A DNA stretch of 46,053 nucleotides from Sedimenticola sp. (lineage in GTDB: Bacteria > Pseudomonadota > Gammaproteobacteria > Chromatiales > Chromatiaceae). The notes under the pieces were generated by a model. It was not told the DNA's origin. It did no database searches and saw nothing but the letters and a program-made list of their open reading frames with translations. The position numbers and the translations under genes were made by a program. The stretch spans positions 1-46,053 of the forward strand of contig JAPHUE010000165.1 in the NCBI GenBank assembly GCA_026196795.1, written 5' to 3'. Positions 7,385 to 22,623 of this stretch are shown here, one piece after another; within the stretch, counting starts at the first letter, position 1; each line of letters begins with the position of its first letter.

Positions 7385-9325
7385 TTACTTGTTGGCGCGG
7401 TTCTCGATAAGATCATCCACCACGCCTGGATCTGCCAGTGTGGAGGTGTCGCCCAGTGTGTCGATCTCGTTACAGGCGACTTTACGCAAGATGCGGCGCA
7501 TGATCTTGCCTGAACGGGTCTTTGGAAGGCCGGGGGCCCATTGGATCAGGTTGATCTTGGCGATAGGGCCAATCTCGTTACGTACCAGTTTCACCAGTTC
7601 AGCCTTGAGCTCGTCAGTGGGTTCAATGCCTGCCATGGGTGTGACGTAGGCATAGATGCCCTGGCCGGTGATTTCATGGGGATAACCTACCACAGCCGCC
7701 TCGGCAACTTTTTCATGCAGCACAAGGGCTGACTCAATCTCAGCTGTACCGAGACGATGACCGGAGACATTCAGAACGTCATCAATTCGACCGGTGATCC
7801 AGTAGTAGCCATCCTTGTCACGGCGCGCACCGTCACCCGTGAAATAACTGCCGGGGTACTGTGAGAAGTAGGTGGATTTGAAACGCTCATGATCACCATA
7901 GACCGAGCGCATTATTCCCGGCCAGGGGCGTGTCATAATCAATGCACCTTCACACTCTCCTTCCAGGACTTCACCGGTAGCCGCATCGACAATCTCTGGT
8001 ACGACGCCAAAGAATGGCATAGAGGCCGAGCCGGGTTTCAGATCAGTTGCACCAGGCAGTGGTGTGATCAGATGTCCACCTGTCTCGGTTTGCCACCAGG
8101 TATCCACGATGGGGCAGCGAGCACCACCAACTACGCGGTAGTACCACTCCCAGGCTTCAGGGTTGATGGGCTCACCTACTGATCCGAGTAGACGCAGGGT
8201 TGAGAGATCATGTTTTTTAACGGGTTCATCACCTACCCGCATCAGGGCGCGAATAGCGGTAGGTGCGGTGTAGAAGGTGTTGACCTTGTGTTTTTCACAG
8301 ACCGCCCAGAAGCGACCGGCATCCGGATAGGTCGGAATGCCTTCAAACATCAGGCTGATAGCGCCATTGGCCAGCGGACCATAGACGATATAAGTATGGC
8401 CGGTTACCCAACCCACATCAGCGGTACACCAGTAGACTTCACCTTCTTTATAGTCAAAGGTGTATTTATGCGTCATGGCGGCATAGAGCAAGTAACCGCC
8501 CGTGGTGTGCAGTACGCCCTTGGGCTGGCCGGTGGAACCCGAGGTATAAAGGATGAATAGAGGGTCTTCCGCATCCATCTCTTCTGGGGCGCACTCTTCA
8601 GAGGCATCCGCCATGGCATCGTGGTAGTAGATGTCCCGTCCTTCTTTCCAGGCAACATCACCGCCGGTGCGTTTGACTACAATGCAGGTGCTGACATTGG
8701 GACAATCTTCCAGAGCGATATCGGCGTTGGATTTGAGTGGGACATTCTTACCGCCACGAACAGATTCATCAGCGGTGATCAGGGTCTGGCAATCAGAATC
8801 CAGGATACGACTGGAGAGGGCATCGGGAGAGAAACCCCCAAAGACAATGGAGTGGACCGCGCCGATACGGGTGCAGGCCAGCATCGCCACAGAGGCTTCC
8901 AGAATCATCGGCATGTAGATACAGACACGATCGCCCTTTTTAACACCCCGTGATTTCAATACGTTAGCAAACTTACAGACTTCCTTGTGCAGTTCACGAT
9001 AGGTGACGCTCTTGTCTTCATTGGGGTTATCGCTTTCCCAGATCAGTGCGGTCTGGTCACCACGGGTATCCAGATGGCGATCAAGGCAGTTGTAGGAGAC
9101 ATTCAGCTTGCCGCCCTGAAACCATTTGATATTGGCGTCATTAAAATCCCAGTCACTCACTTTGTCCCATTTTTTGGACCAGGTGAGAAACTCTTCTGCG
9201 GCGTCGCCCCAGAAACCATCCGGGTCTTCCACCGAGCGCTGGTACATGGCTTTGTATTTTGCGGCATCAATATGGGCTTGGGCCGCTGTCTCAGCACTAA
9301 CCGGATAGATTTTCTCTTCGGACAT
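7385..9325 (-). CDS. acs: Acetyl-coenzyme A synthetase
   Basis: The product is a 646-residue AMP-forming acetyl-CoA synthetase. It has the ATP/AMP loop [11 protein letters not shown], the acetate-pocket region with WWQTETGG, the hinge region [16 protein letters not shown], and C-terminal [11 protein letters not shown], whose lysine is the acetylation site in characterised homologues. The start at 9325 is chosen over an upstream in-frame ATG at 9424 because AAAAGGAGAC lies just before it and the N-terminus ([10 protein letters not shown]) then fits the family. It converts acetate, ATP and CoA to acetyl-CoA. It lies downstream of the exonuclease and DUF294 genes on the same strand. Two inverted repeats sit in its 125-bp leader, and a strong terminator follows. 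Confidence 0.97.
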
Positions 9326-9354
9326 AGCATGTCTCCTTTTCTTTAATATACATG

Positions 9355-9370
9355 GACCAATTGCTTGGTC
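9355..9370. repeat. Inverted repeat in the acs leader (possible operator)
   Basis: GACCAA and TTGGTC are separated by 4 bases, 30-45 bp upstream of the acs ATG. The symmetry suits a dimeric repressor site or a short mRNA hairpin; which one is not known. Confidence 0.45.
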
Positions 9371-9390
9371 GGCTTCTCTCAAATTTAAAT

Positions 9391-9405
9391 ATAACGAAAC
9401 GTTAT
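9391..9405. repeat. Second inverted repeat upstream of acs
   Basis: ATAACG and CGTTAT are separated by AAA, in an AT-rich stretch about 66-80 bp before the acs ATG, where a promoter could lie. Possible operator; no protein is assigned. Confidence 0.4.
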
Positions 9406-9450
9406 TTTCTACGTTTCTGCACAACAGGTGTTCTCAGTTCTATGCGGACA

Positions 9451-10179
9451 TCAAAAGTGTCCCAGTTCGTATTGTCGATTAATCAGTTTATTCACCGGAT
9501 TGTTGTATTCCACCAGTACCTTTGCCAGCCGCTTAAATACCTCCGCAGTGATCATGGCATCGCCACGAGCCGTGTGGCGTCCTTCGATGACCACTTGAGT
9601 GTAATCGGCCACCTCCTCCAATGTATAGTGCCCAACCCGTCCTGTGTGTACGAGATAGAGCAGCATGGTATCCAGCCACGGATGTTTCAGGTGACACAGC
9701 AGCTCTTTCTGCAGGATTTTGTTTATAAATCGGATATCAAATCCAATATGATGCCCAATCAATACACTCTCACCAATAAAATCAGCTATTTCCTGCATTA
9801 CCTCTTCAATCAAGGGTGCATCCCTTACATCCTCATCTTTCAGATGATGTATGCGGGTTGAAGCTGCTGGAATGTCTCTTCCTGGATAGATCAATGTGTT
9901 GAACTCGCGTCCAGTTAACTCCAATCCGTGCATTTCAAGTAGCGAGATTGAACAGATCTCATCGCCTGCATAAGCCTGTAAGCCGGTAGTCTCTGTGTCT
10001 ACAACAACAAATCGCGTCTCCTCAATCGGTTTATTGATCAGCTGTTTCGGATTAACCGAAAGCAGTCGATGGTGCAGTGCCAGCATATCCGGGTCTGCAA
10101 GCAAGGCACCTTTGCTCAGGGTACGTCGAAACCCTGCATGTATTCTCCCCAGTAACTCACCGAGCTGTTCGCTTGCCAT
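9451..10179 (-). CDS. DEDDh 3'-5' exonuclease (DnaQ / Pol III epsilon-like)
   Basis: The product is 242 residues. The exonuclease motifs are complete: DTET (61-64, Asp61 and Glu63), GHHIGFD (142-148, Asp148), and RHTARGDA with His202 and Asp207, which makes it a DEDDh enzyme. It lacks the C-terminal alpha-binding tail that would make it the replicative epsilon subunit. An N-terminal extension of about 55 residues precedes the fold. Genes of this type often sit beside a cNMP/CBS/DUF294 gene and a symporter/acs cluster in gammaproteobacteria, as here. It lies 131 bp after the DUF294 gene and 125 bp before acs, so one transcript is plausible. Confidence 0.88.
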   Translation of the reverse strand: MASEQLGELLGRIHAGFRRTLSKGALLADPDMLALHHRLLSVNPKQLINKPIEETRFVVVDTETTGLQAYAGDEICSISLLEMHGLELTGREFNTLIYPGRDIPAASTRIHHLKDEDVRDAPLIEEVMQEIADFIGESVLIGHHIGFDIRFINKILQKELLCHLKHPWLDTMLLYLVHTGRVGHYTLEEVADYTQVVIEGRHTARGDAMITAEVFKRLAKVLVEYNNPVNKLINRQYELGHF

Positions 10180-10310
10180 ATCGCTTTGGCGGTTGCTGTT
10201 CAGCCTGTAATTCCCGTATGTTTTTTACTTTTTTTCCCTCTTTAAAATCAAAAGGGCCGGGACTTGATCAGTTATATGATGGCTGCCAGTTTCTGCCACT
10301 CCTCTCTCTA

Positions 10311-12191
10311 CTAGAATATGTCGGTTGCGTAGTCGTCCTGTAACTTTTCCTGGAGGCGTTTTACCGCCCGCATAGCCATACGCAGCGTACTGCGCGACTG
10401 CGGTGAGAGTCGTTCTGGATTGATCAGTTTGTTCAATTCATTTTCACTCTTGGCCTGTTTGATCTGGTGTGTCAGCAGCAGATCCAATAGCTCTTCGAAG
10501 GCCTCTTGTACGGAGTCCTTGAAATCTGTGGAGAGTTTTCCGACACGCGTCAGCGCGTTCAGCCGATCGGTGGTGTTCTGTGCAGCGATGCCTTTTTGCA
10601 GAGAAAAAATGCGTGCGGCATCGGCAATGATACGTAAACCGTTACGTTTGATATCGATATACTCACCCTGTTTATCTTTCATAGTAACCAATTGGTTGAA
10701 GAATCCGATAGCGGGTTTTCCCTCGGCATCGTGATCTGACATCATTTTAAGTAAGCGAGGTTTTTCCTTTATTTGAGCGAGGGAATAGCGACGCAACTCC
10801 GAGGTGAGTGTGTCATCACCGTATAGCGTATCGAAATCAAAGACAACGTTTGACCAGCGCGCTGCTTTTTCAGTTGGGTGGTCAATAATATGGCTGATCT
10901 GCTGTTTCCACTTGGAGAGTGTTTTGTTATACAACGGATTACGCGCCATGATGGCACCGGGGCAGAGCGGATAGCCGATTCGATCAAGATTCAGATTGAG
11001 TCGATTACAGAAATGGTCAAACCACTCCTTCACCTCTTTGGTTTCGCTTATGGGAGTGTCTTCGATAATGATGCCGTTATCCTGATCGGGATTAAGCAGC
11101 ATCTCAAGACGTCCGCCGGAACCCATGATAAGCAGGCTGAAACCGACGGGTGCTTTACCCAGGTCCTTTGTCTCCATCCAGCGTAGTGTTAATTCAACAG
11201 CACGCCTTTGTGCAATCAGGTGGTATTCGCTGAGTAATCTGACGGCACTGCTAGGGCGGTGATTGGTCTCCTGGATGTCGATTGCGGCATCCACTAGTTG
11301 CGGAATGAGGTTCGCCAGTTCCTGTATGGTGTCAGCTTTCCGCAATCGATTGGTGAGTGTGCTGGGTCGAGAAATCAGAATACGCAGGATATCGGTTTGC
11401 GAGACAATACCGATGGGTAGTTGTTCCTCCAAAACGATCAAGTACTCTGTCGAGTGCCGTTTCATGATCTCTTCGGCTTCCCACAGGGCTGTGTCAGGAT
11501 CGATCACGCGGGGTGTTTCAAAGGCTACATTGATCAATCGGTCATTTGGATCGGCCCCTTTCAACATGACCGCTTCAGCTATGCCGGCATAGGTCAGCAT
11601 GCCTTTTAACAACCCTTTTTTATCAGTGACTACGACGCTGCCGATTTTTCTGCTTTTCATCATGCCGAAGGCATCACGCAGTGTGGTTTCAGATGTGCAG
11701 GATACGGCCGGTGTGCGCATCAGCCGGGTAACGGGTTGTGCCAGTACGCCAGTTGAGATTGAACGGTCCGGGCTGCGCTCCCGTAATTTCGTTGCGATCA
11801 CCCGATTCAGTACATTGAAGAGTTCAGGATGCTCCTCTTCAAGTGCCTTAAAACGCGCCTCCGGAATGGCAAGTATGACCGATTGATTCGTCGCTACAGT
11901 TTTGGTGGTGTAGTCGTTCTTATCCAGATAATTCGCCAAGCCAATCAGGTCGCCAGGCAGTACGGTATCCTGTCGGCCTGTTGGGCGGTGCATGACCACT
12001 GTGCCGTCAAGCAGTATATAGATCTCTTTTTTGTAGGGTTCGCCAGGGCGAAAAAGTGCAACGCCACCGGGCAGAACGCGTTTGCTCGCGCAGGACACCA
12101 ACTTTTTCAAGGTTCTAATAGGAACCTCTCTGAAGGTGCGCGTCGCAGCAAGTATCTGCTCGGTTGTTAACGTTGCTCTTGTCTCTTCCAT
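10311..12191 (-). CDS. cNMP-binding / CBS / DUF294 nucleotidyltransferase-like signalling protein
   Basis: The product is 626 residues from the ATG at 12191; a GTG at 12236 would add 15. There are four parts. A cyclic-nucleotide-binding beta barrel (about 20-135) contains LPGGVALFRPGEPY and PGDLIGLANYLDK. Two CBS repeats span about 155-280. A DUF294 nucleotidyltransferase-like domain has GSGGR (357-361) and acidic pair D369/D371. A DUF294 C-terminal helical domain ends the protein. The architecture predicts a protein that senses cyclic and adenine nucleotides and modifies a partner, as GlnD-type enzymes do; the partner is unknown. It starts the minus-strand group that continues with the exonuclease and acs. 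Neither start has a good Shine-Dalgarno sequence. Confidence 0.88.
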   Translation of the reverse strand: MEETRATLTTEQILAATRTFREVPIRTLKKLVSCASKRVLPGGVALFRPGEPYKKEIYILLDGTVVMHRPTGRQDTVLPGDLIGLANYLDKNDYTTKTVATNQSVILAIPEARFKALEEEHPELFNVLNRVIATKLRERSPDRSISTGVLAQPVTRLMRTPAVSCTSETTLRDAFGMMKSRKIGSVVVTDKKGLLKGMLTYAGIAEAVMLKGADPNDRLINVAFETPRVIDPDTALWEAEEIMKRHSTEYLIVLEEQLPIGIVSQTDILRILISRPSTLTNRLRKADTIQELANLIPQLVDAAIDIQETNHRPSSAVRLLSEYHLIAQRRAVELTLRWMETKDLGKAPVGFSLLIMGSGGRLEMLLNPDQDNGIIIEDTPISETKEVKEWFDHFCNRLNLNLDRIGYPLCPGAIMARNPLYNKTLSKWKQQISHIIDHPTEKAARWSNVVFDFDTLYGDDTLTSELRRYSLAQIKEKPRLLKMMSDHDAEGKPAIGFFNQLVTMKDKQGEYIDIKRNGLRIIADAARIFSLQKGIAAQNTTDRLNALTRVGKLSTDFKDSVQEAFEELLDLLLTHQIKQAKSENELNKLINPERLSPQSRSTLRMAMRAVKRLQEKLQDDYATDIF

Positions 12192-12266
12192 CAGTAGGCT
12201 ATGTTTCTTGTTCCGGCTGTCGTTGTTTGTCGGCACTGTTGTGCATTATGAAAAACTGTTACTTTT

Positions 12267-12473
12267 ATGCTCTTTCCCGTCACTAAGATAAAGGTAGAGG
12301 CAACAACGTTGATAGACTGGATCTTCCTGCTTGTTACCGGCGTTATTGCCTATCATGCGTTAACCCATCGTAATGAGGATGGTGAAAACGATATCGGTCA
12401 TCTTCTGTTTGGTGCGATTGCGCTACTGTTTTTCACCCGTGTTCTGTTTGTCGATATTCTAAAGTTGCTCTGA
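12267..12473 (+). CDS. Small two-helix membrane protein, unknown function
   Basis: The product is 68 residues (about 54 if a TTG at 12309, preceded by AGAGG, is the true start). There are two hydrophobic segments, about 16-31 and 44-66, joined by a charged loop HRNEDGENDIGH. It is divergent from the DUF294 gene and convergent with the TPR gene, and no gene on the other strand covers it, so it is unlikely to be a shadow ORF. I do not recognise the family. Position suggests it belongs to the symporter/acs neighbourhood. Confidence 0.6.
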   Translation: MLFPVTKIKVEATTLIDWIFLLVTGVIAYHALTHRNEDGENDIGHLLFGAIALLFFTRVLFVDILKLL

Positions 12474-12494
12474 ACCGTGTTTTCTGCGCTGTTA

Positions 12495-13196
12495 TTAGTC
12501 CAGTCGATAGGCTTGTTGTTTGGCATCCTCATCGGGTAGCCGCATTAATCGCTGTTCTACAGGTTTGGCTAATTCCGTTTCCAGGTAGCGAGCCCTGTCC
12601 GCAATGGACGGTGGTTTCTCAGGCTGATTGCGCATGAATCGGGTGAGAAAACCGGGACCTTCTTTCACTTCTGGTGCCAGTTTTAATGCTAAATTGTAAT
12701 CATCCAGTGCCCCTTGGTAATCGGCCAACTGATCTTTCAATATGCCCCGGTTGGCATGGGCGACACCTATGGCCAGCCGATTGGTCTGGCTGATGCCGTT
12801 GATTGTTTCCCGTTGTATGGCTTCGTCATACAGTGAGAGGGCCGTCTGTAGATGGTTGTTGGATGAGCGGCGCAGCTGCGCGGCCCTGCTAGTGTCATCC
12901 TGTGTATTAAGCTTAATCTGTTCAGCTTCGATAGACTGCTGAAGTCCGAGGCGCATATGCGCCTGTGCCTGCCCACGTAATGCGCCGATGTTCTCTTGGT
13001 CCTGTTCGTAGACCTTACTGAAAGCTGCAAGTGCTTTTTCAAATGCACCATCTTCCAGATAGCGTCCTGCCGCGGCAAGTTCGTGAGCGCCCGGTTTGGA
13101 CGCTCCGTCTCCAGAGTCGTACAGCGTCCATGCGACCCACGCAATAGTAAGTGCTATAGCCGTTCTGACCAGGAGGCGATAGCGTTTTTCATCCAT
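12495..13196 (-). CDS. TPR-repeat protein, membrane-anchored
   Basis: The product is 233 residues from the ATG at 13196; a GTG at 13205 is also in frame. One membrane segment (about 8-25) is followed by tetratricopeptide-like helices: AAAGRYLEDGAFEKALAAFS at about 42-61, ALRGQAQAHMRLG, then HANRGILKDQLADYQGALDD and YNLALKLAPEV. The last 50 residues are charged. TPRs mediate protein contacts; the partner is not evident. The ATG lies inside the end of the upstream 81-residue gene (ATGGATGA, an 8-base overlap), which indicates coupled translation of the two. Confidence 0.8.
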   Translation of the reverse strand: MDEKRYRLLVRTAIALTIAWVAWTLYDSGDGASKPGAHELAAAGRYLEDGAFEKALAAFSKVYEQDQENIGALRGQAQAHMRLGLQQSIEAEQIKLNTQDDTSRAAQLRRSSNNHLQTALSLYDEAIQRETINGISQTNRLAIGVAHANRGILKDQLADYQGALDDYNLALKLAPEVKEGPGFLTRFMRNQPEKPPSIADRARYLETELAKPVEQRLMRLPDEDAKQQAYRLD

Positions 13197-13434
13197 TGCC
13201 GGCACTAGTCAGCCACAGATTGAAAAACCATGAGAACAGTGCAACAAGAAACAGACTTATAAAACGTGCCCGTATCTTCTGGCCATGCAAGGCGTCACGA
13301 TCAAGCGTAACACCCAGTTTGTTTTGTAGCCGTCGGACACTGACTATCCAGATCAGGTTGCTGACCGGGAAAAACAGCATGGCCGCTAATAAAATGAACC
13401 AGAGGTAGAATGACGTGTTCATAATCTGATCCAC
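13189..13434 (-). CDS. Small membrane protein, unknown function
   Basis: The product is 81 residues, or 77 from a second ATG at 13422. It has two hydrophobic helices (about 9-31 and 58-75) separated by a basic linker, VRRLQNKLGVTLDRDALHGQ. It overlaps the TPR gene by 8 bases and lies 87 bp after the symporter gene on the same strand, so all three may be co-transcribed. I do not recognise the family. An accessory role for the symporter is possible, but this rests only on position. Confidence 0.75.
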   Translation of the reverse strand: MDQIMNTSFYLWFILLAAMLFFPVSNLIWIVSVRRLQNKLGVTLDRDALHGQKIRARFISLFLVALFSWFFNLWLTSAGNG

Positions 13435-13521: not shown

Positions 13522-15507
13522 TCACCCAGGTTTATCCAGGTCCAGCTGTATGTCACCTATATCTTCATGCAGTGCCACCACCTCTTTATGGGGTATGGTG
13601 GAGAGTTCCATCTTATAGGCCAAGAACCACATCATACCCACACCGAGTATCCACCATAGCAGCTGCCAGGCCCAGATAGAGGGCATGCCGAACGTCCAGG
13701 TGGCCGCATTGGTAGGGTCACCAAATATCCAGTTACCAATCACCGCACCCGGCCCTATACCAAAGAAGAACCAGATCAGTGTGACTATCCATGCGATGGG
13801 AATCAGGCTGCGTTTTTCGGCAGAGAGCGAGGCATGATCATGAAGGAAATTATGGAAGATCATACGGTGCTCACGCTCAGTATCTTTCTGCGTCATGGCA
13901 GAGATAATCAGGGCCAGTGAGAAATTGAATAGGATGCCCCAGAATGCTGAGTGCAGGGTCATAGGCCAACGTCCCCACGGCATATATTGTGCGCCTACGC
14001 TCTCAGTCAGGGTTACCGCAATCAGGCCGGCAATAAGACCGATAGTGATACCTTGACGTGTCAGGTAGGGCCACCAGCATACGGCGATCAGGGCGGGCCA
14101 CATCTGGAAGCCATAGGCTACGGCGAGTCCACCCAGTAACACCAGGGCATCGCTGGATGTGGAGGCAACCACCAGTGCCGCCAAGACAATCAGGATGACA
14201 CCGATTCGGCCGTACATCTTTTGCTGGGCGTGTGAAGCATGGGGAATAAGGAATCGCTTTAGCAGATCTCGGGTCAGCATTCCGCCAGCAGTCGACATGT
14301 AGGCAGAGCCAGTCGATTGCATTGCGGCCAGGGCGCAGACCGATAACAGGCCCACCAGCCAGGGTGCAGTCTCAGACATCAGGTAGACCAGCTGTGGAAC
14401 CAGCATGTCGCCTTTACCTTCCGACTGAAGCAGGTCGATACCACCGAGGCCTGTACCCATCACATTATTGACCAGCTCGGGAAACTTGGCCAAAAATTCA
14501 AGATCGGCCCCAAGGAAGTGAGCACCGATGCCCTGGATGGCAGTGAAAAACATCAGGATAAAGCCAATGACAAAGGAAGAGGCCCAAACCTGCTGGGGCG
14601 CAAAGGGTTCAGGGCTTTTATTGCCGAAGGCCCACATGGAGAAGGCCGGTGCGGATTGGATGCCCATTAGTCCAAACATATAGGTGAGCACCATGACGCC
14701 TGTCCAGGCGCCGCCAATGGGTGCGCTATCCGTTCCCAGTCCTGCACCAAACTGGATCACCCCCGGAATGGCAATGTAGGCGCTATACCCCTCCGGTGTG
14801 GTTTTTCCGAACATCGCCTTGCCTGTGGCGGGGTCGATCTGCGACAGTGCGGCTATGCCTTCGTTCAGACGGGCAAAACCACCTACCTCATGCATGGCGA
14901 TTAGACCCACGACCACTATGCCTCCGCCCAGCAGGATGGCCTGGGCTGAGTCCACATAAGCGACTGCTCTGAGCCCGCCGGAAGCGACATAGATAATGAC
15001 CACGATAGAGAGTAACCACATGCCTACTGTGGTGCTGAGCATGTTGTCGGTCAGGACGTTAAACAGGAAACCGGATGCGCGCAGCTGAATCCCCAGATAG
15101 GGTACCGAGAAGATCAGCGCCACCAGCACCACCAGGATTCTGATCAGGTCTGAACGAAAGTAATACGACAGCATCTCGCCCGGGGTGATGAACCCAAAGC
15201 GCTTGCCCAGCATCCATTGCCGTTTTAGAAATAGAACGCCGGTGAAAGGAATGGTGATGGCGTAAAATGAGGCGTAAGCGTATTGAAAGCCGTCACGATA
15301 GATTAAGCCTGGATGGCCCATAAAGGTCCAACCGGAGAATGAAGTTGCTGTGGCTGCGAGAATGAACACCCACAGTGAGATCTGACGTCCTGCTACGAAA
15401 TAGTCGCTTGCGGTCTTGGCTGAGAGGGCACCCTTGATGCCCCAAAAGATACAGTAAGACCAATATAACGCAACGAATACAAACAACCAGACAACTTTCG
15501 CGTCCAT
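13522..15507 (-). CDS. Sodium:solute symporter (SSS family), putative acetate/carboxylate transporter
   Basis: The product is 661 residues with about 13 hydrophobic segments. Family landmarks are ASDYFVAGRQISLWVFILA near residues 34-52, ATSFSGWTFMGHPGLIYRDG (55-74) and IIYVASGGLRAVAYVDSAQA (about 170-190). The C-terminus (from about 525) holds a cytoplasmic loop, two more helices and an acidic tail. SSS proteins use the sodium gradient to import small organic solutes. The acs and CbrAB-like neighbours point to acetate or another small carbon source, but the substrate cannot be read from sequence. The ATG is preceded by GAGGGGG, a strong ribosome-binding site. A sigma54 promoter and an activator-type palindrome lie upstream. 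Confidence 0.9.
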   Translation of the reverse strand: MDAKVVWLFVFVALYWSYCIFWGIKGALSAKTASDYFVAGRQISLWVFILAATATSFSGWTFMGHPGLIYRDGFQYAYASFYAITIPFTGVLFLKRQWMLGKRFGFITPGEMLSYYFRSDLIRILVVLVALIFSVPYLGIQLRASGFLFNVLTDNMLSTTVGMWLLSIVVIIYVASGGLRAVAYVDSAQAILLGGGIVVVGLIAMHEVGGFARLNEGIAALSQIDPATGKAMFGKTTPEGYSAYIAIPGVIQFGAGLGTDSAPIGGAWTGVMVLTYMFGLMGIQSAPAFSMWAFGNKSPEPFAPQQVWASSFVIGFILMFFTAIQGIGAHFLGADLEFLAKFPELVNNVMGTGLGGIDLLQSEGKGDMLVPQLVYLMSETAPWLVGLLSVCALAAMQSTGSAYMSTAGGMLTRDLLKRFLIPHASHAQQKMYGRIGVILIVLAALVVASTSSDALVLLGGLAVAYGFQMWPALIAVCWWPYLTRQGITIGLIAGLIAVTLTESVGAQYMPWGRWPMTLHSAFWGILFNFSLALIISAMTQKDTEREHRMIFHNFLHDHASLSAEKRSLIPIAWIVTLIWFFFGIGPGAVIGNWIFGDPTNAATWTFGMPSIWAWQLLWWILGVGMMWFLAYKMELSTIPHKEVVALHEDIGDIQLDLDKPG

Positions 15508-15614
15508 TGGTCGTATTCCCCCTCAGTTGTGAATTTTGAATGAAAATTATAATTCTGGTTTTTGAATTCAGGATGCTAAAGACGATCCATTTTAATTCAA
15601 ATCTCACGCTATTA

Positions 15615-15630
15615 TGCGAGAAACGTGCCG
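15615..15630 (-). promoter_or_regulatory. Sigma54 (-24/-12) promoter of the symporter gene
   Basis: On the minus strand the element reads CGGCACG-TTTC-TCGCA, against the consensus TGGCACG-N4-TTGCA. The invariant GG (15629-15628) and GC (15617-15616) are present with correct spacing, and 10 of 12 fixed positions match. The expected start site is near 15604, giving a leader of about 97 bases that ends in a strong ribosome-binding site for the symporter gene. Confidence 0.78.
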
Positions 15631-15679
15631 TTAATTAAAGCTATTCAGCTCAATGGGTTGTGTAATTCATCATCGTTCT

Positions 15680-15707
15680 GTTACCGCCTTTCGTTACTAT
15701 TGGTAAC
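15680..15707. promoter_or_regulatory. Putative activator-binding site (CbrB-type UAS)
   Basis: A GTTACC half-site (15680-15685) is followed by the palindrome GTTAC-TATTG-GTAAC (15693-15707), with another GTAAC at 15724-15728. It lies about 70 bp upstream of the -24 element, a normal distance for a sigma54 activator. The same composite motif occurs before the kinase operon. Confidence 0.65.
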
Positions 15708-15757: not shown

Positions 15758-17113
15758 TCAGCTCGCCCCTTTTTTGGCCCTGGGTATGCCAAAGCGTTGT
15801 CTTCTCTCCCAGAGTGCCTTGCGGCTGATCCCCAGTCGTTTGGCGAGTTCAGTTTCGGTCATATGATCCTGGTTTTCCAGGACGAACTGGCGGAAATAGG
15901 CTTCAAGCGAGAGGTCACCTGAAGGTGTGCTGGCGGACATGGTCAATGAGTCAGCAGAGTGGGCGCTTTCAATAGCGAGCAGGTCGGGCGTAATCAGGTC
16001 CTCTTCACAGAGAATGACGGCGCGCTCCAGTGCGTTTTCCAGTTCCCGGACATTCCCAGGCCAGCTATAGGTGGTGATCGTATCAATGGCTGCCTGGTTA
16101 AGCGTCATTGGGGCGCGGTTCAGCTGTTTGCGCGTTTTCTCCAACAGGAATGTCGCCAGTTCTACGACATCGGCCCCCCGGTCTCGCAGTGGTGGAAGAT
16201 TGAGCTCCACTACACGGAGGCGGAAATAGAGGTCGCTTCGAAACTCCCCCTCCTGGACCCGTTGTTTCAGATCGCGGTGCGTTGCGGCAATCAGTCTCAC
16301 GTCCACCAGGCGGGACTGCTCTGAACCGACACGGCGTATCTCTCCATTTTGCAGGACACGCAGCAGGCGGGCCTGTGCTGCAAGAGGTAACTCGCCGATC
16401 TCATCAAGAAACAGGGTGCCACCCTCTGCCGCTTCGATCAGGCCGGTACGGGCTGAATCGGCCCCGGTAAACGCCCCTTTTTCATGGCCGAACAGCTCGG
16501 ATTCAATCAGGGTTTCAGGGATGGCCGCACAGTTGACCGTTATAATCGGCGCATCTTTACGCAGGCTCTGTTCATGTAGCGCCCTGGCAACCAGCTCTTT
16601 ACCTGTACCTGACTCGCCCAGTATAAGAACGGTGCTATCGGTGGGTGCTACCTTGGTTACCCGGCGGCAGACCTCCTGCATGGCCGGGCACTTTCCTACC
16701 ATGCCATCAACAGGATAGGATTTGTTGAGTTCGGATTTCAGAACTTCGGTCTTTCGCCCCAGCTTTTCCTGCTTCAGTGTGCGCTCAATCAATAGCACCA
16801 GCTCGTCGTGATCAAACGGCTTCGCAATGTAATCAATAGCCCCCTTTTTCATGGAGTCGACCGCGGACCTGACACTCGCATAGCTGGTCATGATCAGCAC
16901 GGGTACGCCCGGTGCGCGATGAATGACCTCGGTGCCAGGAACACCGGGTAGCCTGACGTCGGTCAGGATCAGGTTGAAGCTTTGCAAATCATATTTCTGC
17001 TCAGCCTCCTCAACGGATTCTGCGGAGCTGACTTTATAGCCCCGACGGGTGAGTAAGCGTTCTACTGCGGCACGGATGACCGATTCGTCTTCAATAATCA
17101 GTATTTGACTCAT
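15758..17113 (-). CDS. Sigma54-dependent NtrC-family response regulator, CbrB-like
   Basis: The product is 451 residues with three domains. The receiver domain (3-115) has acidic pocket E8/D9, phospho-acceptor Asp52 and Lys98. The AAA+ domain (about 135-375) has Walker A GESGTGKE (166-173), the sigma54-contacting GAFTGA loop (213-218) and Walker [11 protein letters not shown]. The C-terminal Fis-type helix-turn-helix (about 415-445) is [20 protein letters not shown]. It needs sigma54 to activate promoters. Its ATG lies 23 bases inside the end of the kinase gene, so the pair is coupled. Pairing with a symporter-domain kinase is the CbrA/CbrB arrangement of Pseudomonas. The name is a family inference, not proof of orthology. 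Confidence 0.93.
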
Positions 17114-20060
17114 GACTTTTCAGGTCCAAGTGTTGCGGTAGATTAATAATGACTCGGGTACCCACTCCAGGGGCCGAATCAATAGCAATACTACCATCAT
17201 GTTCATCGATAATTTTTCCTACCATGGGCAGGCCCAGGCCCGTTCCTTTCCCGGCCTCTTTGGTAGTGAAGAAGGGTTCGAAGATCACATCCTGCACATC
17301 TTCCGGGATGCCTTCTCCCTGATCCATTACTTCAATCTGTATCTTGTTATGTGAGGCAAAAGCAAAGATCTCCACCCGATCGCCGGGCTCAGATGCATCA
17401 CAAGCATTGGTGAGTAGATTAACCATCACTTGAGCGAGTCGCTGTCGATCGCCTTTCATGAGCAGATCTTCGGGACAGCTGTTGCTGAACTCTACATGTT
17501 TGCCTGCTCGGGTCAGGCCAACCAGCTGAATGGCCTCTTCAAGGATGCTGTTGAGAGTGAAGGTTTCAAAATTAAGTCCGATACGGCCACTTCGGCTGTA
17601 GCTCATCAGGGAGTGGACAATACTACTTATGCGGCGAGTCTGCTGTAGTATCGCTTCGATGCTCTCCTTGGTCGTCTCCTCATCTCGCTCTTCCAGAAGG
17701 TTCTGGGCCAGTGAGGCGATGCCCGAGACTGGGTTGCCTATCTCATGCGCTACGCCTGCCGCCAGCTTACCAATAGAAGCGAGTCGGTCACTGTGGGCCA
17801 GTTCGGCCTCCAGGGTTTCCAGGTCTGTGAGATCCTCCAGGAGCAGAACCAGGCCACTGCGGGGACCGGTCTGGTAGCGAGGCAGGTCTGGATCAAGAAT
17901 GGCGGCCTTATGCAGATTGAACCAGTGAGGACTGTTATGAATGGGCACTTCCATATGGTGGATGTGTTCATCCTGAGCCAGCGCAAAACCGGCCAGCAAT
18001 TCACCCCAGGGTTCGGTCAGTGAAGAGAGTTTGCGACCCATGGCTTCATTGCTGGGAACACCACTCATCACTTCCAGTGCCAGGTTCCAGGTCACCACGG
18101 TGTGATCCGGGTCCACAGCGCAGACCCCCAGGGGCAGATCCAACAGTACCTGTCGATGATATCGGCGCAGTGCATCAAGATCCGCCGTCAAACCCTTCAG
18201 CTTACTGCGTGACTGCTCCATGCGCTCTTCCATATGTCTGATTGAGTCGGCCAGAGCCGTCTTCGCATCAGCATCCACTTTGAGCTGTTGGTTGATAATC
18301 ATATGTGCCATGGCGGGACCGACGAGACCTGAGAGGTTTCGCTCGATCCGCTGTCTGAGCCGCTTCAGCTCTCTGGGACGCGTCTCACTGCGATCGAGTT
18401 CCAGGTCTTCCAGGGCTTGGTTGACCTCCATCTCCGCTGCTTCACGCCCCAGCATCACCGCAAGTCCTTCGGAGAACTGTGCGGGTGAGACCGCTGACAG
18501 GGTGCCATCCAGGGGAATCATGATGGCAACTTCACTGCGGCAGGCGAGGGCTGTCTCTTCCTCTTCCGGTGACTGGCGGGTAAGTAGAGAGATAATGACA
18601 AACAGCAGGCTGTTGAGGGCGAGTGACCAGAAGGTGGAGAACTGCCACTGATCCAGCCCGGCTGTATCCCGCATGGCGGGAAGATCAATGCCGGTACTTA
18701 TGAAGCCTGACTTTTCAAGTAAAGGCAGCAGCAGGGTGATGACCCAGATTGATATACCACCCAGTAGTCCGGTGATAAACCCTTCCCGTGTGGCGCGTCG
18801 CCAGTAGAGCAGGCCGACAATGCCGGGCAGAAACTGGGCGACAGCCACAAATGAGATCAGACCGAGTTGAACCAATCCCTGATTGTGCTCCAGTAATTCA
18901 TAAAAGATATAGCCGGCAAAAATAATCAGACCAATCAGCAGGCGCCTGCCCCAGAGAAGCCAGCGATAGAGGTCGACCTTGGGATCAGGATAACTGGCGG
19001 GTAACAGCAGGTGATTCAGGCACATGGATGAGAGTGCAAGGGTGGACACAATGACCATCGCGCTGGCTGCGGAGACGCCTCCAATAAAGGCCAGAACCGG
19101 TAGCCAGGACGGTCCCTTACTGAGGGTGATGCCCAGTACATAGTAGTCGGCATCCATATCCAGTTTCAGGTACTCCCCCGCCCAGAGGATCGGAGGGATA
19201 GCCAGATTGAGCAGTAACAGAAAGAGGGGAAAGGCCCAGCTTGCCGTGGCCAGCGACCTGATCGACAGATTTTCGGTAAAGGTCATGTGAAACTGTCGAG
19301 GTAGCAGGAATGCCGCACAAAACGATAGAAACAGTAGCGTGGTCCAGGGGCCTTCTCTGACCGGTTCATACAGGTTACGCAGGGCTTCGGGGTGTTTTTC
19401 GAGGTACAGACCTAAATCTGAAGGGCCGGAAAAAACACCGAAGATGGCGAAATAGCCGACGGCCATCATGGCGACAATCTTGACCAGTGACTCGAAGGCG
19501 ATGGCGGCCACCAGTCCACGATGCTTCTCTCGTGGAGAGATGTGTCGTGCACCGAACAGGATTGAAAACAGGGTGAGCATGCCGCAGAAACCCAACGCCA
19601 GGGTCTGAGGGATTTCATCGTGGGTCAACACCTGGATGGAGGTGGTGACCGCACGAATCTGCAAGGCAATGTAGGGCAGCGAGCCCAGCAACATGAACAG
19701 GGTGACCAGCACGCCACCAATCTGGCTGCGATAACGGAAGGCCAGCAGGTCAGCCAGAGAGGTAAGCTGGTATTCCCGTGTCAGCCGTAACAGGGGTTGT
19801 AGCAACACCGGACTGAGAATGAAGGCAATGGTGACACCCAGATAAACGGTCAGGAACTGGTAACCCTCGCGCTGTGCAAAGCCAACACTTCCATAATAGG
19901 TCCATGAGGTGGCGTAGACACCGAGCGAAAGTACATAAACAGGGGCGTTATCGGTCCAACGGTCAGGTAACAGGCCACTGTCAGTGACATAGGCTACGAA
20001 GAAGAGCAGCAGGAGATAGAATAGGCTGGCGCCAAAGAGGATCTCCAGATCATAGGTCAT
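17091..20060 (-). CDS. Sodium:solute symporter-domain sensor histidine kinase, CbrA/CrbS-like
   Basis: The product is 989 residues from the ATG at 20060; the reading frame extends back to a TTG at 20099. Residues 1 to about 490 are an SSS transporter-like domain of about 13 helices. Next come a cytoplasmic linker of the STAC type, a coiled region, a PAS domain (about 640-750), the dimerisation/phospho-acceptor box [14 protein letters not shown] (His772) and a HATPase domain with N box [10 protein letters not shown] and G boxes [10 protein letters not shown] and [11 protein letters not shown]. There is no C-terminal receiver domain, unlike the Vibrio CrbS as I recall it, so the layout is closer to CbrA. 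It should sense a transported solute or its flux and phosphorylate the NtrC-type regulator. Confidence 0.93.
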
Positions 20061-20250
20061 GCTGAGAATATTTCCGGCGTAACCAAGCACCCAGCACAAT
20101 CACAAGTAGCCATAGCCCATAGGGAACCAGCCAGTGGGCGCGATCTGAAGCCCACCATACCGTCAGAGGGGAGGCGAACAGAAACAGGGCGAACAGAGCC
20201 AGTATCAGGGCGCTCTCTCGCAGCCGTATGGGATCGGGGTGTTTTTGCAT
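20050..20250 (-). CDS. Short membrane protein upstream of and overlapping the kinase gene
   Basis: The product is 66 residues: a charged start (MQKHPDPIRLRES), two hydrophobic helices (about 14-33 and 42-57) and a basic end (RRKYSQHDL). The kinase ATG lies within its last codons, an 11-base overlap (ATGACCTATGA), so kinase translation is probably coupled to it. A short ORF called cbrX has been described before cbrA in Pseudomonas; this one sits in the same place, but homology was not checked. No clear Shine-Dalgarno sequence is present, and a GTTAC/GTAAC motif lies only 9 bases before the ATG. Confidence 0.75.
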   Translation of the reverse strand: MQKHPDPIRLRESALILALFALFLFASPLTVWWASDRAHWLVPYGLWLLVIVLGAWLRRKYSQHDL

Positions 20251-20258
20251 GATATTAG

Positions 20259-20283
20259 GTTACCAGCTGTTACTATAGGTAAC
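20259..20283. promoter_or_regulatory. Second GTTACC + GTTAC-N5-GTAAC site, before the kinase operon
   Basis: GTTACC (20259-20264) is followed by GTTAC-TATAG-GTAAC (20269-20283). It has the same half-sites in the same order as the site at 15680-15707, with a shorter gap (4 instead of 7 bases) between the single and the paired half-sites. No sigma54 element with correct spacing was found on either strand between here and 20480. Confidence 0.6.
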
Positions 20284-20479
20284 AACATGGCGCGGCTTTA
20301 GGGGAAATTTATTCTGTGGCCTATCGGATCAAATAGAGCGGTATACTGGCAACGCAAGCGGCTTTGATAAGACGTGCTGGCAAGCCGTATTATCGAGCTG
20401 TGGTAAATAAAAACGAACGTAGCTTCGAAAGCTGTCGACAATTGACGGTTTTCTATGGGTGAGCAAATAAGGGGAGTCC

Positions 20480-20863
20480 ATGAATCCTGAAAAGGTGGTA
20501 TTCGGTTTTTTTATTGTTTTAGCACTGACGCTTAATTTCGGATTTTTTGTCGGCGAGATCGATAATCCTGATCATCATCATCTGTATGAGCTGTTTGCAG
20601 TTGTGATCGTGAATGTGATTGCGACCCTGTTGAAGTTTGGTGATCGGACTCAGATGGGAGCCGTGTTACTGGCTACCAGTCTGGTTGCCGTGATGCAGTT
20701 GTTCGCGGCAGCGCTGGTATGGGCTGCGGCTGAGCATATTACCGCTACGGGACTGACCCCTACCGTGATGGCCAGTATCGTTTCACTTTCGGGTGGCGCC
20801 ATGTTGGCAAATGTTATCTCAGTGGTTCTACTGGTCATTGAAACCGTCATGTTGCGGCGCTAA
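20480..20863 (+). CDS. DUF6394-like integral membrane protein
   Basis: The product is 127 residues with four hydrophobic segments (about 5-26, 37-53, 60-85, 96-123) and a histidine cluster HHH at 33-35 in the first loop. The AGGGGAG before the ATG is a good ribosome-binding site. It ends 14 bases before the potassium-channel gene, so the two form an operon, and similar small membrane proteins are known beside RCK channel genes. No biochemical role is known; an auxiliary subunit of the channel is a positional inference. Confidence 0.8.
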   Translation: MNPEKVVFGFFIVLALTLNFGFFVGEIDNPDHHHLYELFAVVIVNVIATLLKFGDRTQMGAVLLATSLVAVMQLFAAALVWAAAEHITATGLTPTVMASIVSLSGGAMLANVISVVLLVIETVMLRR

Positions 20864-20877
20864 GTCGGTATTTCGAG

Positions 20878-22623
20878 ATGCATAGCATCTACTTTCTGAT
20901 ATTCCGGCGTATGCGTCAGCCACTGCTGACGTTAGTGGTGACCTATGCCGTTGCTGTGTTGGGATTGTCACTGATTCCAGGACAGGATGATGCGGGAAAT
21001 GTCTGGCATATGGATCTGTTCCATGCCTTCTATTTCGTCAGTTTTATGGCCACCACGATTGGTTTTGGTGAAATTCCGTATCCCTTCACAGATGCCCAGC
21101 GTCTCTGGGTGACCTTCTCACTCTACGCGACCGTGGTTGTCTGGTTTTATGCGATTGGCACACTGCTATCGCTGGTGCAGGATAAAACCTTTCAGCAGGC
21201 CATGACCGAGGGTAAATTCACCAAGCGTGTCAAACGGATACGTGATCCCTTTTATCTGGTGTGCGGCTATGGTGAAACCGGCAGTGCATTGGTTCATGCA
21301 CTCACCGAGCGTGATCATTCCGTTGTGGCTGTTGATATTAATGCCGATCGCGTCAATATGCTTCAACTTGAAAACCTGCGACAGTATGTTCCTGCCCTGG
21401 AGGGTGACGCTTCCCGGCCATTGCATCTATTAGAGGCCGGATTGAAACATCCGCTCTGTCGGGGTGTTGTTGCACTTACCAACGTAAACGAAGTCAATCT
21501 GAAGATTGCGATTACCAGTAAGCTGCTGCATCCGGAAGTCAAGGTGATCTGCCGCACTGATTCCCATGATATCGAAGAGAATATGGCCTCTTTTGGTACA
21601 GATTACATCATTAACCCGTTTGACACCTTCGCGAATCACCTGGCAACGGCGTTGCAGGCCCCCGGCTTGTACTTGCTGCACGCCTGGTTAACAGGCGGGC
21701 GGGGTCATTCGCTGGAAGAGCCAGTATATCCGCCTGCGTCTGGGCGCTGGCTGGTCTGCGGCTATGGCCGGTTTGGCAAGGCGATTTGTCATCGGCTGAA
21801 AAAGGAGGGGATTGAGCCGATTGTTATTGAGGCAATGCCCGATGTCACCGGTATGCCAGAAGAGGGTTATGTTCTGGGCAGAGGGACAGAGGCCAAGACG
21901 TTGTTGGAGGCAGGGATAGAAGAGGCGGTTGGGCTGGTGGCTGGTACCGATAATGATGCCAATAATCTCTCTATTATTATGACTGCCAGAGAGTTGAGGC
22001 CCGAGCTATTTGTCATACTTCGGCAAAATCAGAAAGAGAATCAGTCTATTATCAATGCGGTCAAGGCGGATATGGTGATGCATGCCAGCGCTATAATCGC
22101 CAATCGGATTCGGGTTCTACTGGGAACGCCCCTGCTGTATCAGTTTACCAGTCTCGCTATGCATGAAAGTGACGGGTGGGCCTGTGAACTGGTCAGTAGA
22201 ATCAGTGCTCTGGTTACTACAGAAGGCCCGGCTATCTGGGAGGTAGCGCTCACAACGCATGAGGCGCTGGCGGTCTGCAGTGCTATGGGGCAGGGTCGCT
22301 CCGTTAATTTGCAACATCTTTTGACCGACCCAAGGGCACGCGAACAGTCGCTTCCCTGTATACCCTTGTTGCTGAAAAGAGGGGATCAGAGAACGATGTT
22401 GCCAGTTTATGAAACCCCACTTAAACTGGGTGATAATATACTCTTCTGCGGCCGATACTCGGCCCGTGATCGTATGGAGTGGGGACTGCAGAATATTCAT
22501 TCGCTGAATTATATTCTTACTGGTAAGGCCGCTACGGGTAGCTGGCTTTGGCGCTTGTTACAGCGAAAAGGATTGATTTCGACTGATCCCCCATCGCCTT
22601 CAAACGATGATGTGCCGGGCTAG
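20878..22623 (+). CDS. Potassium channel with two RCK (TrkA-N) domains
   Basis: The product is 581 residues. An N-terminal two-helix pore module (about 12-32 and 80-100) flanks the selectivity filter TTIGFGE (59-65), a variant of TVGYG. Two cytoplasmic regulator-of-conductance (RCK/TrkA-N) Rossmann domains follow, with GYGETG (130-135) and GYGRFG (295-300) nucleotide-binding loops. A less conserved region (about 415-540) probably corresponds to TrkA-C-like parts. It should be a tetrameric K+ channel in the inner membrane, gated by nucleotide or another ligand. The filter has phenylalanine where tyrosine is common, so ion preference is not certain. It is probably co-transcribed with the DUF6394 gene. 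Confidence 0.9.
   Translation: MHSIYFLIFRRMRQPLLTLVVTYAVAVLGLSLIPGQDDAGNVWHMDLFHAFYFVSFMATTIGFGEIPYPFTDAQRLWVTFSLYATVVVWFYAIGTLLSLVQDKTFQQAMTEGKFTKRVKRIRDPFYLVCGYGETGSALVHALTERDHSVVAVDINADRVNMLQLENLRQYVPALEGDASRPLHLLEAGLKHPLCRGVVALTNVNEVNLKIAITSKLLHPEVKVICRTDSHDIEENMASFGTDYIINPFDTFANHLATALQAPGLYLLHAWLTGGRGHSLEEPVYPPASGRWLVCGYGRFGKAICHRLKKEGIEPIVIEAMPDVTGMPEEGYVLGRGTEAKTLLEAGIEEAVGLVAGTDNDANNLSIIMTARELRPELFVILRQNQKENQSIINAVKADMVMHASAIIANRIRVLLGTPLLYQFTSLAMHESDGWACELVSRISALVTTEGPAIWEVALTTHEALAVCSAMGQGRSVNLQHLLTDPRAREQSLPCIPLLLKRGDQRTMLPVYETPLKLGDNILFCGRYSARDRMEWGLQNIHSLNYILTGKAATGSWLWRLLQRKGLISTDPPSPSNDDVPG

Follow-up and report, generated by a model that had tools for sequence, protein, structure and literature searches.

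The question raised by this locus is what a CbrAB-type two-component system controls when a symporter gene stands directly behind its regulator gene. The best-known output of CbrAB in Pseudomonadaceae is the decoy RNA CrcZ. The window, a stretch of 46,053 nucleotides from Sedimenticola sp. (GCA_026196795.1, contig JAPHUE010000165.1), carries on its minus strand a gene for a small membrane-type protein of 66 aa (20050–20250), a sensor kinase gene with a symporter-like N-terminus (17091–20060; the longest ORF reaches 20099), a gene for an NtrC-type sigma54 activator of 451 aa (15758–17113) and a gene for an SSS/SLC5-family symporter of 661 aa (PF00474; 13522–15507). An earlier note had claimed that the activator switches on the symporter gene directly from a sigma54 promoter, closing a loop between a symporter-domain sensor and a true symporter. 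The activator is indeed the next gene upstream and contains GAFTGA in its AAA+ domain, between a receiver and a C-terminal HTH.

The note had called the system "CbrAB-like", which is right as to the relationship and too weak as to its degree, because the cbrX-cbrA-cbrB locus here is an orthologous one. Among 55 regulators placed in a tree, the window regulator falls in a 33-row CbrB clade (support 100/100) together with the regulators of Pseudomonas, Serpens, Halomonas, Litchfieldella, Gilvimarinus and a Cellvibrionaceae bacterium. With Pseudomonas CbrB as the query, the window gene is the best match in its genome (62%), and the orthologue is the best match in eight of the nine genus genomes (60–62%), the ninth, G005, being 65% complete. 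NtrC-type regulators are plentiful in the genus (13 matches at E<=1e-60 in the source genome, CbrB included), and the receiver-containing paralogues in the source genome reach 46% at most to Pseudomonas CbrB among the matches listed. The recognition-helix region, TETELAxxLGISRKxLWERRQRxGIPR, is common to the window regulator and the Pseudomonas, Halomonas and Cellvibrionaceae regulators, and is unlike that of four other NtrC-type regulators (L110, L111, L112 and L114).

The kinase has PAS, HisKA and HATPase domains by Pfam, with no SSF match by the same search. Its residues 4–590 align to PDB 10ed_A (E 5e-172), an entry taken as the Pseudomonas CbrA structure on the strength of a residue numbering that agrees with PMC13022988; the STAC part was judged via this same alignment alone. 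Between CbrA and the window symporter, BLASTP gives a weak match of 25% over 170 residues. Six of nine residues named in the account of PMC13022988 are kept by eye (Y51, W55, F71, Y75, F406 and the coupling residue K196), and three pocket or coupling residues differ from Pseudomonas (S53T, A56T and F248S), suggesting that the sensed ligand may not be histidine. The small protein is the counterpart of CbrX by position, with its start read by eye. The 3' end of its gene shares 11 nt with the likely beginning of cbrA (ATG at 20060; by eye), and both this overlap and the gene order resemble the Pseudomonas CbrX-CbrA-CbrB/CrcZ system, the cbrX/cbrA overlap in P. putida being given as 17 nt in a review (PMC8871633). 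Orthologous kinase-regulator loci are also present in Halomonadaceae, Cellvibrionaceae and the source family, which contradicts the statement in the same review that CbrAB is unique to Pseudomonadaceae. Divergent to cbrX, the plus strand encodes a DUF6394 protein and a TrkA-N/ion-channel protein (20480–22623); this neighbourhood also occurs in five of seven congener loci, and one or both genes occur in six other genera.

The intergenic region between the regulator and symporter genes contains, in minus-strand order, a forward subsite, a palindrome, a reverse subsite, CGGCACGTTTCTCGCA and the symporter ATG. The sigma54-type -24/-12 element CGGCACGTTTCTCGCA (15630–15615) has the form GG-N10-GC, with two mismatches to TGGCAC-N5-TTGCW. 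It lies about 108 bp before the ATG at 15507, in agreement with the distance of about 110 bp claimed earlier, and predicts a transcription start at approximately 15604. The two upstream elements of the earlier note are also in place: the palindrome GTTAC-CAATA-GTAAC (15707–15693), whose right half we call subsite R1, and GGTAAC (15685–15680; GTTACC on the plus strand), subsite R2. The note had omitted the forward subsite F1, TGTTAC (15729–15724), as well as a second palindrome at 20269. The GTTAC/GTAAC half-sites that it names agree with those of P. putida CbrB, for which PMC6296734 describes one TGTTAC (F1) and two GTAACA (R1 and R2) subsites upstream of sigma54 promoters. These subsites were mutated and footprinted in that work, and the protein is described as a monomer on non-palindromic subsites with a slight dependence on phosphorylation.

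Neither motif stands out by number. With up to three mismatches allowed, the window holds 215 instances of the -24/-12 pattern, where 229 are expected, and GTTAC-N5-GTAAC occurs at six places in the 2.77-Mb assembly, the same count as that of the backward control. Since each is at chance level singly, conservation and position have to decide. Two of the six palindrome places are the two intergenic regions that flank the kinase-regulator operon (15693–15707 and 20269–20283).

Of 93 genomes, 15 contain matches to the symporter at E<=1e-150, at 17 loci in all. Eight of the 14 readable loci in genomes with a CbrB orthologue belong to the genus, two are the copies in G018, and G017, G053, G023 and G012 contribute one each; the G005 locus, cut at a contig end, was left out. 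All 14 have GTTAC/GTAAC sites and GG-N10-GC, including the four that are distant from cbrB (G017, G053, G023 and G012), where the symporter lies 6 or 10 kb away or on another contig. GTTAC at F1 and the right half of the palindrome are each kept in 14/14 loci, and R2 in 11/14 (absent in G008, G012 and G017). What is conserved as a unit is GTTAC-(30–31 bp)-GTAAC, in most cases followed 12–14 bp on by another GTAAC; the F1–R1 distance is 30–31 bp in 13 of the 14 loci, and the distance from R1 to -24 is 67–71 bp in every one. The palindrome as recognition unit at the symporter is rejected, being perfect in five of the 14 readable loci and in three of eight in the genus. The conservation that the earlier note had predicted upstream of orthologous symporters thus holds for the sites and the -24/-12 element and fails for the palindrome itself. 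Among eight genus sequences, the best conserved intergenic stretches are the -24/-12 element, F1 and the ribosome-binding region. A composite pattern built on these same sites gives one match each in eight of nine genus genomes, always at the symporter promoter, with none in the controls; a stricter spacing pattern gives four matches in 57 family genomes, all at the symporter promoter, with three control matches. The subsite spacing is 31/13 here versus 19/22 in the Pseudomonas locus L007. In G018, each of the two cbrB-symporter copies (L122 and L123) has its own sites and -24/-12 element.

G089, which belongs to another family, carries the symporter at two loci (78% and 58% identity) and has no match to the regulator at E<=1e-100. 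Neither locus contains a GTTAC/GTAAC pair or a -24/-12 element, and one has two lone GTAAC. Together with the 14 conserved loci, this supports the central claim of the earlier note, and we consider it probable that CbrB activates the symporter gene. RpoN was found in seven of eight congeners and was not found in the source assembly (78% complete) or in G006. The -24/-12 element counts as a predicted sigma54 promoter by virtue of its conserved GG-N10-GC (14/14) in this RpoN-bearing group. In G002, the RpoN DNA-binding domain lies in two pieces 40 kb apart (C14:178634 and C14:218523), which reflects an assembly fault or a rearrangement.

The slot behind cbrB is occupied differently elsewhere. 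In Pseudomonas and Serpens, the promoter in this position makes CrcZ (Rfam; L007 and L010). Halomonas, Litchfieldella, Gilvimarinus and a Cellvibrionaceae bacterium have similar sites and a -24/-12 element followed by AANAANAA repeats; an eighth Pseudomonadales locus, L006, showed no such repeats, and L005 and L008 were missed by the promoter pattern and thus remained unscored. Closer to the source genome, the slot in G043 opens onto acs, the site geometry being the same (R1 to -24, 68 bp) and approximately 360 bp lying between promoter and gene (L126 9741–10260). In G053 a TIGR03647/03648 symporter pair takes this place, with a palindrome and a -24/-12 element. In G023 the slot faces a symporter with 20% identity to that of the window, after a small ORF resembling TIGR03647 (by eye), also with a palindrome and a -24/-12 element. 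G049 has the TIGR03647/03648 pair with a palindrome, and no -24/-12 element was found there. These four are the loci with a palindrome-like site among 14 further ones scanned behind cbrB in the family and class, three of them with -24/-12; the other ten lack the combination of site and -24/-12 (G015 has a -24/-12-like match alone), indicating that the slot is not used everywhere.

The distribution of Crc was followed with a Pseudomonas Crc query (L187), recognised by eye from its sequence and lying beside a pyrE-like gene. Homologues of 40–48% occur in 14 of 21 same-class genomes; they are relatives by sequence only and are not set apart from exonuclease III paralogues. A set of 34 same-family genomes gave no match at E<=1e-15; all nine of the genus, two of these being incomplete, belong to this set. 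Among five more family genomes, G036 and G049, both with CbrB, have homologues of 44–45%, and no match reached E<=1e-15 in G043, G053 or G057. The proposition that Crc is missing from the whole family is accordingly rejected, with a homologue in two of the 39 family genomes examined. None of the 14 family genomes carrying the symporter has a Crc homologue, and G089 has one; Crc is also missing from family genomes that lack CbrB. An output onto Hfq/Crc through CrcZ or CrcY was found neither in the window, as to CrcZ, nor in the genus, as to Crc, and this is an output of CbrAB, not a defining part of it.

The regulator may have a further target. A search for GYTAC-N5-GTAACR in six genus genomes revealed tandem palindromes 43–44 bp apart, with TGGCCCAAATCATGCA or close variants, preceding a second symporter operon, TIGR03647/TIGR03648 (families tested in G004). 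The remaining places in G004 (two contigs) are the cbrX promoter and two inside ORFs. In three of the six genomes (G008, G003 and G001) the total counts are no higher than those of the backward control, and this third conserved promoter is argued from shared positions, not from pattern counts. A circuit confined to the window symporter is rejected on the basis of this third promoter. On the other side of the second-operon palindrome, about 35 bp away, starts an ArsP-type permease ORF (L140 6838–7977, G000 C10), and the two may share a control region.

The second palindrome flanking the operon (20269–20283) is a predicted CbrB operator on the cbrXAB promoter. It overlaps a -35 hexamer, TTGTTA (20280–20285, minus), and the spacer, and is followed by an extended -10, TGG-TAACCT (20257–20265, minus), six bases ahead of the cbrX ATG. 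We compared the window with 16 of 24 fetched loci (L115–L138), the other eight being cut or without the small ORF. By eye, GTTAC (once GCTAC)-N5-GTAAC followed by the extended -10 TGNTANNCT is present in 17/17 cbrX promoters. The N6-ATG spacing after the -10 holds in 16/17, L130 having ATC; in L138 and L135, the cbrX start is upstream of the tblastn match or has no such match. In 14/17 loci the palindrome supplies TTGTTA with a 17-bp spacer to the -10; in L130, L133 and L135 the spacing is 20–24 bp and the palindrome lies 3–7 bp further upstream of the -10. The six bases between -10 and ATG predict transcription from the start codon, so that cbrX is apparently leaderless, and the position of the palindrome over the -35 and spacer predicts a CbrB dimer in a repressor position. 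We lean towards the view that CbrB represses its own cbrXAB operon, and this palindrome is a candidate for a more direct feedback than the sensor-symporter loop suggested previously. In the 14 genomes with the 17-bp operator-promoter spacing, no Crc match was found (14/14, uncorrected for kinship); of the three genomes with other spacings, G071 and G049 have a Crc homologue and G091 just a 25% match. This trend fits a rewiring of the system and is confounded by kinship.

In seven Pseudomonadales loci, no palindrome was found within 700 bp upstream of the kinase gene. The P. putida cbrXA transcript is described as having a leader with a predicted Hfq/Crc site, unlike the apparently leaderless promoter with an operator-like palindrome seen here, and its CbrA levels as independent of CbrB (PMC6591292). 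Together with the monomeric, non-palindromic binding in PMC6296734, these accounts of the model protein offer no precedent for palindrome binding or autorepression. Our literature search found no case of a leaderless promoter combined with response-regulator autorepression in a two-component system.

The symporter promoter can be read in other ways. A sigma70 promoter, or read-through from cbrXAB, might supply the symporter transcript, with the -24/-12 match arising by chance, as its chance-level frequency in the window and the failure to find rpoN in the source assembly would allow; the conservation of the element in all 14 loci, where it ranks among the best conserved intergenic stretches, its near-fixed distance to R1 and the presence of RpoN in most congeners make this quite improbable. 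Occupation of the same slot as crcZ would suit a promoter that drives a CrcZ-type sRNA in the leader instead of the symporter mRNA. This we regard as very improbable, because the symporter promoters have 0–1 AANAANAA motifs in the 350 nt downstream (nine loci), against 9–17 per 350 nt behind the promoter in the five Pseudomonadales loci scored out of seven, no CrcZ or other Rfam match reaches the gathering score in the window, and the genus gave no Crc match. A coincidental link to CbrB, with another regulator reading GTTAC-N5-GTAAC, would account for the control-level frequency of the palindrome genome-wide, and a different NtrC-type regulator is encoded a few kb from the second symporter operon. 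Against this improbable reading, the half-site is identical to the P. putida CbrB subsite established by mutation and footprinting in PMC6296734, the CbrB recognition helix is conserved and the HTH of the regulator near the second operon differs from it, and the sites stand on either side of cbrXAB in the genus, being absent from the symporter loci of the genome that gave no CbrB match.

A more serious alternative, though still an unlikely one, concerns the direction of control at cbrX: the palindrome would be an activator site from which CbrB aids sigma70 polymerase in a positive feedback. It overlaps the -35 and has been kept together with the promoter, and in L130, L133 and L135 it sits further upstream of the -10. 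Sigma54 is the usual partner of NtrC-type activators, and no -24/-12 element was noticed by eye at the cbrX start. Moreover, the palindrome lies over the -35 and the 5' portion of the spacer, a usual position for a repressor, and the extended -10 present in all 17 promoters suggests that little help is needed.

We propose a circuit in which CbrA, the symporter-fold sensor kinase, together with CbrX probably signals to CbrB. CbrB would most likely oligomerise on F1, R1 and R2 (15729–15680) and drive sigma54 RNA polymerase from the -24/-12 element, turning on the symporter gene, so that the slot behind cbrB may give a symporter mRNA here versus the Hfq/Crc decoy RNA CrcZ in Pseudomonas. It most likely also activates the second symporter operon. 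Repression of cbrXAB would most likely be exerted by a single CbrB dimer on the palindrome over the -35 and spacer of the leaderless sigma70 promoter. A wider proposal, which we hold to be evenly poised between right and wrong, is that CbrAB has been rewired in the source family: where Crc is missing, the slot would have been given to uptake and activation genes (the SSS symporter, the TIGR03647/03648 pair and acs), and an operator for CbrB, on a sigma70 promoter without a leader, would have taken over from Hfq/Crc in the control of cbrXA. If so, CbrB would work in two modes set by the number of sites, one palindrome over a sigma70 -35 repressing and several subsites upstream of -24/-12 activating. 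A circuit with three conserved promoters (six genus genomes, palindrome search only) suits clean tests of CbrB action. The same kinase, regulator, small protein and subsites in another family also provide a natural comparison for the assembly or dismantling of the Pseudomonas catabolite-repression cascade.

Among the systems that invite comparison, CrbS/R works through a LuxR-type regulator, CrbR. The closest likeness is to the Pseudomonas system, in which CbrB has a near-identical recognition helix and cbrB is directly followed by TGTTAC/GTAAC subsites and a sigma54-type promoter (PMC6296734). Unlike in Pseudomonas, the slot holds a symporter gene, or in other genera acs or the TIGR03647/03648 pair, instead of crcZ, and no Crc was found in the genus. 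In Sinorhizobium, RpuS/R is likewise described as an SLC5/STAC kinase system that activates a symporter gene, mctP, adjoining it in several strains; the mctP promoter as presented there has a direct repeat, which is imperfect, and a -10 box for which no -35 is recognised, with no -24/-12 element in the description (PMC9100948). CrbS/R is another SLC5/STAC kinase system, controlling acs and the SSS symporter actP, and in the published account its inverted repeat stands directly before the RpoD promoter of acs (PMC5715377). CbrA and CbrB control the glucose symporter GluP in Azotobacter, a Pseudomonadaceae organism in which Hfq-Crc is named as part of the control (PMC5429807). A symporter-fold kinase driving a neighbouring symporter (PMC9100948), the control of acs/actP (PMC5715377) and symporter control by CbrA/CbrB (PMC5429807) are therefore already known from these accounts. 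As far as our literature searches show, the new elements are CbrXAB outside Pseudomonadaceae, uptake genes in place of CrcZ in the slot and an apparently leaderless cbrX promoter that bears an operator-like palindrome; titles and abstracts gave no report of the Sedimenticola cbrXAB-symporter locus.

The symporter scores below every NCBIfam cut-off listed. Downstream of it and in the same direction (7385–13205, minus) lie genes for a TPR protein, a DUF294/CBS protein, a DnaQ-like exonuclease and an acetyl-CoA synthetase (acs), in an order that is identical in all seven congener loci fetched. From acs and the TIGR03648 neighbours, one might guess at the uptake of short-chain carboxylates. Just before the symporter start, TGAGGGGGAATACGACCAATG (15505–15525, minus) is conserved as strongly as the promoter; it may simply be the ribosome-binding site, or perhaps a translational control site.
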